64,000 bases of DNA from contig NZ_FOZG01000001.1 of the NCBI RefSeq assembly GCF_900113315.1, positions 1,798,001 to 1,862,000 of the forward strand, given 5' to 3'. Below the pieces are notes generated by a model. The model did not search any database. It was not told the origin of the DNA and was given only the letters and a program-made list of their open reading frames with translations. Source of the DNA: Sphingomonas jatrophae (lineage in GTDB: Bacteria; Pseudomonadota; Alphaproteobacteria; Sphingomonadales; Sphingomonadaceae). This document shows, piece by piece, positions 53,876 to 58,160 of the stretch. Within the stretch, counting starts at the first letter, position 1, and the number at the start of each line of letters is the position of its first letter. The position numbers and the translations under genes are program-made.

Positions 53876-56332
53876 ATGCGCATCTCGCTCTACGCGCTCG
53901 CGCTCGCCGGCGTTTCCAGCTTCGGCTCCGCCGCCATCGCCCAGGTGGCCGGCCAGGGGCCGGTCACCGTCGCTCCGCCCACTGCCGCCGAGGCCGCCCC
54001 GCCCGCGCAGCCCGACGGCCAGGTCGGCCTTGCCGACATCGTCGTCACCGCGCAGCGCCGCGAGGAAAGCCTGCAGAAGGTGCCGGTGGCGGTCACCGCG
54101 ATCAGCAGCGAGCAGCTCGACCAGTTGCGCGTGACCAACGTCAAGAACCTCGCCGGCATCGCCCCCAGCCTCCAGATTCAGACGCAGGGCCTGCAATCCA
54201 ATCCGTCCATCGCCATTCGCGGCGTCGCCTCGGGCGTGTCGAACAATGCGGTCGATCCCAAGGTCGGCATCTATCTCGACGGCGTCTATATCGGCCGCAC
54301 CGTCGGCTCGATCTTCGACCTGGCGGATATCGCGCGCGTCGAGGTGCTGCGCGGCCCGCAGGGCACTTTGTTCGGCCGCAACGCGACCGCAGGCGCGATC
54401 AGCCTCGTCTCGGCGACGCCGAAAGGCGAATGGGGCCTGCGCGCCACCGGCTCCTACGGCAATTACAACCAGCTGCGCGGCAAGGCGGTGCTGGATCTGC
54501 CCGCCTTCGGCCCCTTCTCCGTCAAGATCGCCTATCTCCATGACGAGATCGAGGGCGATTACCGGAACCTGATCGGCGGCCGGTCGATCAATCTCGGGCT
54601 GCGCATCCCCGCCTTCGGCACGCAGACCTTCTCCAAGAAGCTCGGCGGCCGGAACATCGATGGCGGCCAGCTGGCGATCCGCGGCGATTTCGGCAATCTC
54701 ACCGCCGATTACCGCTTCGACTATACCGACGCGCGCAGCACCGGCCGCGGCATGCAGAGCTTCGGCGTGATCCCCGACCAGTCGGGCCAGATCCTCGGGC
54801 CGATCGTCGCGCTGCAGCCGGCGTTCGGCGGCATCACCAACATCTCGGCCACGCGCCTCCCCGCCATCGCCTCCGCGTCGAGCGAGGAGCATGTGGTGAC
54901 GCAGGGCCACAGCCTGACGCTGTCGGTCAACGCGACCGACAATTTCACGGTCAAGAGCATCACCGCCTTCCGCAAGTTCAAGCAGGATCCGAACATCTTC
55001 GATCTCGCGGCGACAGGTGGCCTGCGGCTGAGCGCGGCGCAGTTCGGCGCGCTGATCACGCCGCCACCAGGGCCGGACGCGACACCGGCGCAAATCGCCG
55101 CTTACCAGGCGGGGCTCGCCACGCTCGGGACACGCCCGGGCGCGAACGACACCTTCTTCTCGCTGCTCACCGCACGCCGCACCCGGCAGGAACAGTTCAG
55201 CCAGGAAGTGCAGTTCCAGCTGGACGGCGAAAGCTTCGAGCTGACCGCCGGCGTCTTCTATTTCCACGAGAATTCGCCTGCCGACGACATCCTCGGCATC
55301 CTCGAACCGTCGATCAACGGCACCATCGTGCCCCTGCCGTTCGACAATGCGTTCGGCAGCGGCGTCACCAGCACGCGCTCGATCAACGATTCGATCGCGG
55401 GCTATGGCCAGCTGACCTTCCACCTGACCGACACGCTTGACATCACCGGCGGCCTGCGCGGCACGATCGACGATCGCGAGCTGATCATCAGCGCCATTTC
55501 CGGAGGCCAGGGCGCGGTGCTGGGCACGGGCGACTACAAGGTCAGCTATCAGAAGATCAACTATACCGGCATCGTCACGTGGCGGCCGACCACGCAGTCG
55601 ACCGTCTATGGCAAGATCTCGTCCGGCTATGTCGCGGGCGGCATTTTGAGCGGTATCCCCTACAAGCCCGAGACGCTCGTTTCCTACGAACTGGGCGCCA
55701 AGACGCAGCTGTTCGACAATCGCGTCCGCCTGAACGCGGCCGTCTTCTACAGCGACTACAAGGATCTGCAGACGCAGAACTTCATCAACGGTCGGCAGGC
55801 GTTCGACAATGCCGGCAAGGCCAAGATCAAGGGCTTCGAGGTGGAGACCGAGATCGCGCCGGTGCGCGGCCTCGTGATCAGCGGCAGCGTCGGCTATTCC
55901 GATCTCGATTACGACACCTTCGTCCTCGCCGGTCGCGAAGTGGCCGACGTGGCGCGCACCACCTACAATTCGGTGTGGACCGGCCGCGCCGCCGTCCAGT
56001 ACGACTCGCCCGACATCGGCAATGTCGGCCACCTCCAGGGCCGGCTGGAAGGCCGCTATCGCAGCCGTTACTTCCTCACCTCCACGCCGCTCCTGAACCT
56101 TGCGGGCCAGGAAGTGCTCGAGGAGTTCAACCGTCGCCCGGGCTACTGGCTGGTGGACGGGCGCCTCGGCCTTGTCGACATTCCGGTCGGCGGCGCGCGC
56201 GCCTCGCTGTCGGTGTTCGGCCAGAACATCTTCAACGAACGCTATGTCTCCTTCGGTGCGCCCGTCCTGTCGCTGGTCGGCACCTATGAGCGTGGCCGCA
56301 CCTACGGCGTCGAGCTCGGCTTCGCCTTCTGA
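53876..56332 (+). CDS. TonB-dependent receptor
   Basis: An 818-residue outer-membrane receptor, largest of the four. Signal peptide ends at about AIAQ (23), DIVVTAQRR lies at 54-62, the plug has [12 protein letters not shown], and the C-terminal strand ends YGVELGFAF with the terminal Phe needed for barrel assembly. Start ATG 53876 with AGGAGAGGA 6 bases upstream. It is followed by the Coq4-family gene, likely in the same transcript. Confidence 0.96.
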   Translation: MRISLYALALAGVSSFGSAAIAQVAGQGPVTVAPPTAAEAAPPAQPDGQVGLADIVVTAQRREESLQKVPVAVTAISSEQLDQLRVTNVKNLAGIAPSLQIQTQGLQSNPSIAIRGVASGVSNNAVDPKVGIYLDGVYIGRTVGSIFDLADIARVEVLRGPQGTLFGRNATAGAISLVSATPKGEWGLRATGSYGNYNQLRGKAVLDLPAFGPFSVKIAYLHDEIEGDYRNLIGGRSINLGLRIPAFGTQTFSKKLGGRNIDGGQLAIRGDFGNLTADYRFDYTDARSTGRGMQSFGVIPDQSGQILGPIVALQPAFGGITNISATRLPAIASASSEEHVVTQGHSLTLSVNATDNFTVKSITAFRKFKQDPNIFDLAATGGLRLSAAQFGALITPPPGPDATPAQIAAYQAGLATLGTRPGANDTFFSLLTARRTRQEQFSQEVQFQLDGESFELTAGVFYFHENSPADDILGILEPSINGTIVPLPFDNAFGSGVTSTRSINDSIAGYGQLTFHLTDTLDITGGLRGTIDDRELIISAISGGQGAVLGTGDYKVSYQKINYTGIVTWRPTTQSTVYGKISSGYVAGGILSGIPYKPETLVSYELGAKTQLFDNRVRLNAAVFYSDYKDLQTQNFINGRQAFDNAGKAKIKGFEVETEIAPVRGLVISGSVGYSDLDYDTFVLAGREVADVARTTYNSVWTGRAAVQYDSPDIGNVGHLQGRLEGRYRSRYFLTSTPLLNLAGQEVLEEFNRRPGYWLVDGRLGLVDIPVGGARASLSVFGQNIFNERYVSFGAPVLSLVGTYERGRTYGVELGFAF

Positions 56333-56443
56333 CGGAGCGTTGCCGGGGCGGGCGCGGCTTGCCCCGGCGACAATTCGGAGTTACGTTCCGAAACGTGACG
56401 GCACCGGCGCGACGGCTGCGCGGGCCAGGTCAGGAGAGCGAGC

Positions 56444-57340
56444 ATGGACAACGACATCGCATCGAAGGTGAGCGAGGCCGACTTCGCTTATTATAACGGC
56501 TCAGGGCCCGGCTTCACGACCGAGAGCTCGACGCTGATCAGCTCGTCGCCCTATCTCAACCATGCGGAACTCCGCACGCTGATCGCGCAGGAGATGCTGC
56601 GCCGGAACGGCGCCGACCTGCCCAACACCGCCTTCATCCCCAACGTCGTCAAGATCCTGATGGAGCTGGAGGACTGGCCGCGCATCTTCCAGCTGTTCGA
56701 GGAAGAAAAAGCGCGCCTGCCGCTCTTCAAGAACTGGCTGGACGGCCGCAAGATCTCGCTCTTCACGCTCGACGAGCTGAAGGACCCCAAGCCCGGCACG
56801 CTCCGCGCCGTCATCCATGATTTCGTCGTCAACAGCGGCTACAACATGGACCATTTCTACCAGGGAATGGAGATCAAGACCGACTTCGACTTCTACATGA
56901 AGGAGCGGACGCACACGCACGACATCGAGCACATGATCACCGGGTTCGAGACGAACCACGCCGGTGAGGTCGCTCTGCTCGCTGCCAATGCCCGTGCGCT
57001 CTACGCTTACTTCAAGCCCGAGCTCGCCGCCTTCTTCAACCGCGTGTCGGCCTATCTCAAGGCCAAGACGACGATGAAGAGCGGCCTGTTCTACCCCGAG
57101 GCCTACAAGGTCGAGCTGGACGCCGAGGATATCGGCGCCGCGCAGGGCCGTGCGTGGAAGCACCCGCTCTTCCTCATCCCCTTCCGCGACTATCTCGACC
57201 ATCAGGTCAGCGACATTCGCGAGGAATTCGGCATCACCAACCCGCCGCCCGCCGGCGAGTGGACCTGGACCACCGCCGTCAGCGAGGACCCACGCCCCGC
57301 CAACGACGATCACGGCCAGACCGCTCAGGCCGCGGAGTAA
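56444..57340 (+). CDS. Coq4-family protein
   Basis: A 298-residue protein with the Coq4 metal signature HDxxH-(x)11-E: His159, Asp160, His163 and Glu175 (HDIEHMITGF...E). In eukaryotes and some bacteria Coq4 acts in ubiquinone assembly, and recent work assigns it C1 oxidative decarboxylation. Here it is 111 bp after a TonB receptor and ahead of an SDR, not among ubiquinone genes. It may perform decarboxylation or hydroxylation of an imported aromatic acid. CAGGAGAGCG precedes ATG 56444. Function inferred. Confidence 0.88.
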   Translation: MDNDIASKVSEADFAYYNGSGPGFTTESSTLISSSPYLNHAELRTLIAQEMLRRNGADLPNTAFIPNVVKILMELEDWPRIFQLFEEEKARLPLFKNWLDGRKISLFTLDELKDPKPGTLRAVIHDFVVNSGYNMDHFYQGMEIKTDFDFYMKERTHTHDIEHMITGFETNHAGEVALLAANARALYAYFKPELAAFFNRVSAYLKAKTTMKSGLFYPEAYKVELDAEDIGAAQGRAWKHPLFLIPFRDYLDHQVSDIREEFGITNPPPAGEWTWTTAVSEDPRPANDDHGQTAQAAE

Positions 57341-57408: not shown

Positions 57409-57434
57409 TTCGCCTGTCTGGAGGGACCGTATCG

Positions 57435-58160
57435 ATGGACGGCAAGATCGCGCTCGTCACCGGCGCCAACAAGAGCATCGGCTTCGAGACGGTGCGCGGC
57501 CTCGCCGCCGCAGGCATGACCGTCTATCTCGGCAGCCGCGACATGGCCGCGGGTGAAACCGCCGCCGCAGAGCTCGCCGCGACGGGCGACGTCCGCCCCA
57601 TCCACATCGACCTGCTCGACGAGGCGACGCTCGCCGCGGCGGTCGACCGGATCGCGGGAGAGCATGGCTGGCTCGACATACTGGTCAACAATGCCGGCAT
57701 CGCCCCCGGCGGCGGCGGCGCGCTCGCCAGCCCGCGTGCCGAAACCGACATCGCCATGCAGACCAACGTCCATGGCCCCGCGCAGCTGATCCGCCTCGCC
57801 GTGCCGCTGCTGGAAAAGTCGGCCTCACCCCGCGTCGTCAACGTCACCAGCGGCGCCGGCACCGTCGGTGCGATGACCGATCCCGAAAGCCCGCTCGCCC
57901 AGGCGCCCTACCTGCCTTACGCTTATTGCCTGTCCAAGGCGGCGGCGAACGCCATGACCGTGCTCTTCGCCAACGACCTGCACGGCCGCGGCATCCGCGT
58001 GAACGCCGTCTGCCCCGGCCTCGTCAAGAGCGCGCTCAGCCACTTCATGGGCACGCGCGGGCCTGCGGAGGGCGCAGTCGTCGTCCTCCGCTACGCCACG
58101 ATGGGTGAGGCGTGCCCAACCGGCGGCTTCTTCGACGAGGACGGCCCCAAGGCCTGGTGA
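57435..58160 (+). CDS. SDR family oxidoreductase
   Basis: A 241-residue SDR resembling carbonyl-reductase-type enzymes, with a long loop before the active site. TGANKSIG (9-16), NNAG (85-88), catalytic Ser139, Tyr164 and Lys168 (YCLSK). The C-terminus is shortened (FDEDGPKAW). GGAGGGA lies upstream of ATG 57435, just beyond the hairpin. Confidence 0.94.
   Translation: MDGKIALVTGANKSIGFETVRGLAAAGMTVYLGSRDMAAGETAAAELAATGDVRPIHIDLLDEATLAAAVDRIAGEHGWLDILVNNAGIAPGGGGALASPRAETDIAMQTNVHGPAQLIRLAVPLLEKSASPRVVNVTSGAGTVGAMTDPESPLAQAPYLPYAYCLSKAAANAMTVLFANDLHGRGIRVNAVCPGLVKSALSHFMGTRGPAEGAVVVLRYATMGEACPTGGFFDEDGPKAW

Follow-up and report, generated by a model that had tools for sequence, protein, structure and literature searches.

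A Coq4-fold protein of Sphingomonas jatrophae and its probable place in a catabolic module with a D-acylase-like hydrolase

We analysed a 64,000-nucleotide stretch of the Sphingomonas jatrophae genome (hereafter the window), in which the forward-strand gene at 56444–57340 encodes a Coq4-like protein of 298 amino acids. As an earlier note on this DNA had described, the gene lies between those for a TonB-dependent receptor of 818 amino acids (53876–56332, forward strand; PF00593/PF07715), which ends 111 bp upstream, and a short-chain dehydrogenase/reductase (SDR) oxidoreductase (57435–58160, forward strand), which starts 94 bp downstream. Outside the part of the locus covered by that note lie two reverse-strand genes for D-acylase-type amidohydrolases, AH1 (60231–61979, about 582 residues) and AH2 (62006–63757, 66% identical to AH1), a forward-strand gene for an XRE/Cro-C1-type helix-turn-helix (HTH) regulator (52787–53536) and, on another contig, a second gene for the identical Coq4-like protein.

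The metal-site motif, reported as intact in the earlier note, spans residues 159–175 and reads HDIEH-x11-E (H159-D160-I-E162-H163-x11-E175). The Pfam Coq4 family PF05019 matches the protein marginally (24.2 bits, with a cut-off of 22.9), and a phmmer search against the PDB retrieved the Nostoc Coq4 structure 3msq (E 7e-7). An AlphaFold model built from 57 homologues reached a predicted local distance difference test score (pLDDT) of 87, and a PDB fold search with this model returned 3msq and 6e12, both cyanobacterial Coq4 structures, as its only significant matches (template-modelling score, TM, 0.70–0.81 by target). The four metal-site residues (H, D, H and E) are invariant throughout the homologues (n = 57), and further invariant residues at the N-terminus sit outside the Pfam-aligned part. 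Because Pfam, phmmer, the structural model and the invariant site agree, the motif, fold and neighbours of this gene are real and not a chance match.

The protein does not group with the ordinary, GYGRD-type Coq4 of bacteria. In a quick maximum-likelihood tree of 16 ordinary bacterial Coq4 and 57 window-type sequences, made with a short search and leaving eukaryotic Coq4 aside, the two sets are split by a long branch with a support of 100 in the Shimodaira–Hasegawa-like approximate likelihood ratio test (SH-aLRT). At position four of HDxxH, 54/57 window-type proteins carry Glu, whereas the 16 ordinary ones have F, W, Y, L, M or T. The GYGRD loop, present in 14/16 of the latter, occurs in none of the 57, while 51 of the 57, but not one of the 16, share an N-terminal motif, S[ST]xL[IV]S[SN]SxYLN. 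By grouping, hydrophobic HDxxH residue and GYGRD loop alike, the window protein falls outside ordinary bacterial Coq4. HDxEH is typical of the clade and not universal, since one S. jatrophae paralogue (locus L013) has Met at the fourth position. Assignment to the Coq4 family, as the earlier note proposed, is thus borne out by PF05019 and by the fold, but instead of being an ordinary Coq4 relocated, the protein belongs to a separate clade whose genes, unlike those of COQ4, are multi-copy and stand beside amidohydrolases.

Conservation of this arrangement was surveyed in one scan of named genomes, which yielded 79 loci, nearly all from Sphingomonadales and not independent of one another. An amidohydrolase gene lies within 2.5 kb of the Coq4-like gene in 66/79, and this pairing extends across Coq4 subclades of about 30–40% identity. 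When pairs within 2.5 kb were drawn from the window, the S. jatrophae paralogues and the named loci (n = 74), 64 were on the same strand, 57 of these with a gap of at most 150 bp; the two genes overlap in L010 and abut in L013. An XRE-type HTH homologue is found within 4.5 kb in 50/79 loci. Within 3.5 kb, any TonB receptor is present in 32/79 and an orthologue of the window receptor (at least 600 bits) in 24/79, so that the receptor linkage, which the earlier note had suggested looking for in related genomes, persists there. It is also seen on plasmid pNL2 of Novosphingobium aromaticivorans, where regulator, hydrolase, Coq4, receptor, Coq4 and AtuA genes follow in one run, and within similar gene sets on ES2-1 and S. 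herbicidovorans plasmids. The clade is rare outside the sphingomonad group, with members in 2/289 Alphaproteobacteria, one of the two being S. jatrophae itself (E ≤ 1e-20). Two tandem Coq4-like genes without an amidohydrolase were observed in Rhodospirillales metagenome genomes (L098:9908-11694, L105:2627-4359).

The same partnership recurs within S. jatrophae, which has seven Coq4-like genes by Pfam search and eight by a custom profile. Six of the eight are beside D-acylase-type amidohydrolases and two beside genes for AtuA (acyclic terpene utilisation). Conversely, of the ten amidohydrolases similar in size to AH1 and AH2, nine have a Coq4-like gene no more than 5.6 kb away, with a chance probability of about 2e-14 genome-wide, or about 6e-6 if all sat in one crowded 350-kb region; both figures assume independent genes and serve as a guide only. 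The tenth (C4:80720; L120:7376-10312, that is, C4:79376-82312) has no Coq4-like neighbour and lies directly behind another putative metal-dependent hydrolase gene. The AtuA-paired genes form a second class (L009:3344-6198, L011:8464-11066, L136:15548-18194), with copies also on pNL2 and on p1 of ES2-1; the single TonB receptor of the pNL2 run is flanked by both classes. The window copy differs from these in having no AtuA neighbour.

The partner hydrolases resemble D-aminoacylase/N-acyl-D-amino-acid deacylase (1m7j, 3gip, 9g5m), matching its fold over the whole length (TM 0.75–0.81 by target). In sequence, the N- and C-terminal parts of the AH1/AH2 family align with D-aminoacylase, including the N-terminal HxH and Cys metal-site residues, which are invariant in the family. 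The partner is about 100 residues longer, and the profile alignment has a gap from position 201 to position 461, leaving the middle third unalignable by sequence. This is the part in which D-aminoacylase has further metal ligands.

The second gene for the identical protein (C5:227836-228732; L012:9836-10732) differs from the window gene at 10 of 897 bases. All ten differences are synonymous, a pattern with a probability of about 3e-7 if the sequence were unconstrained, which therefore indicates purifying selection on the protein; seven lie in the last third of the gene. These comparisons suggest that, while selection preserved the protein, the gene was recently duplicated or underwent gene conversion. 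The flanks of the two copies are unrelated, except for a 19-bp palindrome, TTCGGAGTTACGTTCCGAA, and a few adjacent bases. In the window the palindrome occupies 56374–56392, 51 bp before the Coq4-like start codon, where no match would be expected by chance, and degenerate versions occur in the close relatives L029 and L031. It is a putative operator. A role as operator of a wider regulon was considered and rejected: apart from the two genes for the identical protein, the genome has a single other exact match to TTCGGA-N7-TCCGAA, and the HTH–amidohydrolase intergenic regions (n = 34) hold no counterpart.

Several further genes of oxidoreductase or related type surround this core. Downstream are a zinc-type medium-chain dehydrogenase/reductase (MDR; quinone oxidoreductase-like; 58180–59163, reverse strand) and an SDR-like protein (59353–60132, forward strand), homologues of which (about 250–420 bits) recur in several relatives' loci. 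Upstream lie two reverse-strand SDR genes (49632–50408 and 51213–52001), each with an orthologue in the same island of N. aquimarinum (L031), and a forward-strand gene for a SnoaL/NTF2-like protein (52166–52630) with homologues in L030, L031 and L032. The same island holds genes for a KstD-like flavin adenine dinucleotide (FAD) oxidoreductase, a sulfotransferase and an old yellow enzyme (window positions 23852–25543, 27165–28388 and 43321–44469, respectively). Around related Coq4-like copies there are genes for acyl-CoA dehydrogenase, enoyl-CoA hydratase, CoA-transferase and KshA-type proteins. One of the latter, a Rieske oxygenase gene (L083:15200-16279), belongs to a sequence cluster found in 24 loci, which hints at steroid- or terpenoid-like substrates. 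The catabolic cassette proposed in the earlier note is half right: the surroundings look catabolic and the genes are multi-copy and patchily distributed, but the adjacent SDR lies outside the conserved core, and the conserved partner is the amidohydrolase.

Taken together, we consider it probable, at roughly 0.6, that the window protein is a cytoplasmic metalloenzyme of Coq4 fold and separate clade that works with a D-acylase-like hydrolase in a sphingomonad catabolic module fed by a TonB receptor. The Coq4 fold, known from coenzyme Q (CoQ) synthesis, has probably been reused here, in many copies, for the breakdown of an imported compound. From the predicted fold, the conserved site, the clade, the gene partnership with its co-directional arrangement and the receptor linkage, we infer a catabolic direction, a metal, an order of steps, a reaction and a type of substrate. 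The receptor would import a hydrophobic or amphipathic molecule, whose rings or alcohols would be altered by the SDR, MDR and SnoaL-type enzymes. The amidohydrolase and the Coq4-like enzyme would act as consecutive partners on the same substrate: the former would split an amide or similar linkage, after which the metal site of the latter (HDxEH...E) would decarboxylate, perhaps oxidatively, a carboxylate on a ring or enol. Control of the module would fall to the HTH protein. An ancestral animal COQ4, studied through the motif double mutants H142A-H146A and D143A-E158A, is reported to be a Zn-dependent C1 decarboxylase (PMC7615680); other work, reviewed in PMC12938788, regards COQ4 as an oxidative decarboxylase. 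The analogy makes metal binding by the HDxEH site most likely, with a carboxylate on a ring or enol as its target; the extra Glu may alter the chemistry. Decarboxylase or hydroxylase activity as such, and aromatic acids as substrates, are guesses from the fold. A bolder proposal, to which we give somewhat less than even odds, is that the Coq4 fold founded a family of HDxEH catabolic metalloenzymes, in dedicated pairs with D-acylase-fold hydrolases and in modules that recur inside a single genome, which decarboxylate or hydroxylate hydrophobic compounds from outside the cell by an undescribed metal-dependent reaction.

Several observations weigh against the catabolic interpretation. In 13/79 of the relatives' loci, one of them cut by a contig end, no amidohydrolase lies within 2.5 kb. 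Amide hydrolysis by the partner is not assured, because its middle third does not align with D-aminoacylase. A mirror-tree comparison of Coq4-like proteins and amidohydrolases within the S. jatrophae genome was not significant (64/720 permutations). With 60 Plug domains of TonB receptors in that genome, receptor linkage within it is modest (0.013 when local density is taken into account). Finally, a homologue from the same clade in Sphingomonas montanisoli (67% identical; L040:5525-10858) lies directly behind ubiE, ubiB, a nucleotidyltransferase/HepT pair and coaBC.

This last arrangement also speaks for an alternative in which the catabolic neighbours are incidental and the protein is a ubiquinone enzyme, a divergent Coq4 that replaces UbiD/UbiX in the C1 (oxidative) decarboxylation. 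The S. jatrophae genome gave no match to UbiX or UbiD, although positive controls matched, and showed no ordinary Coq4 and a single UbiH-family monooxygenase, so a Coq4 could fill that gap. As the earlier note had remarked of the window copy, though, these genes stand away from ubiquinone genes: none of the eight is near UbiB (C6:1367784) or the UbiH-family gene (C5:1264244). In the family at large, UbiD is absent from 115/120 Sphingomonadaceae genomes, and UbiD and any Coq4 match are both absent from 57/120, an upper bound given that the Pfam model can miss divergent Coq4 (at threshold it missed one of the eight here). Since these 57 show neither, Sphingomonadaceae seem to manage without UbiD or Coq4. 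Q-10 production is usual in the family, and if the genomes lacking both make it, another enzyme performs the C1 step. Zymomonas is reported to have neither ubiD nor ubiN (PMC10626278). The product of the latter gene in Rhodobacter capsulatus, the decarboxylative hydroxylase UbiN, catalyses in one step the reaction proposed for COQ4, but is a flavin monooxygenase of unrelated fold (PMC10626278). A gene that is multi-copy, plasmid-borne and as patchy as the survey of Alphaproteobacteria indicates is unlike a core quinone gene, and the HDxEH divergence and amidohydrolase pairing suit one equally poorly. A ubiquinone role for the window copy is, on these sequence comparisons, unlikely.

About as improbable is a second alternative, a non-enzymatic scaffold that binds lipids or isoprenoids for the amidohydrolase and SDRs. 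Coq4 was first proposed as a scaffold for the CoQ complex. Oleic acid is present in the Coq4 structure 6e12, and both the invariant residues near the N-terminus noted above and the tight pairing with one enzyme would fit such a role; the invariance of the metal-site residues and the added acidic residue suit catalysis instead. Least probable is a biosynthetic or tailoring module that makes or modifies a lipid amide or signal: no complete degradation pathway is readable here, and product tailoring is also known for SDR and D-acylase-type enzymes, but a TonB receptor in the module, the CoA-related and KshA-type genes around related copies and the lack of any visible synthase gene argue against it.

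We also considered naming the catabolic module a steroid or bile-salt module. It is present in the genomes of Chol11 and of estrogen degraders, related copies have a KshA-type gene in their vicinity, and the D-aminoacylases of C. tardaugens are induced by cholate. We did not adopt this assignment, as no paper was found that links these genes to steroids. Nor, in the open-access literature, did we find a paper on Coq4 in Novosphingobium, on the pNL2 locus tags or on the conserved module.

Our analysis suggests that annotating these Coq4-like genes as ubiquinone-biosynthesis genes is misleading. It also raises the side question of how the C1 decarboxylation of ubiquinone proceeds in most Sphingomonadaceae, which lack UbiD. 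Whether COQ4 is a Zn decarboxylase or an oxidative decarboxylase is still argued, and this bacterial branch, in which the site is altered, natural paralogues are numerous and the partner enzyme is constant, would offer a tractable setting in which to explore the chemistry of the fold. N. aromaticivorans DSM 12444, a model strain, carries the pair on pNL2 (SARO_RS19025, Coq4-like; SARO_RS19030, hydrolase). The module would open a catabolic capacity of sphingomonads that has so far gone unread.

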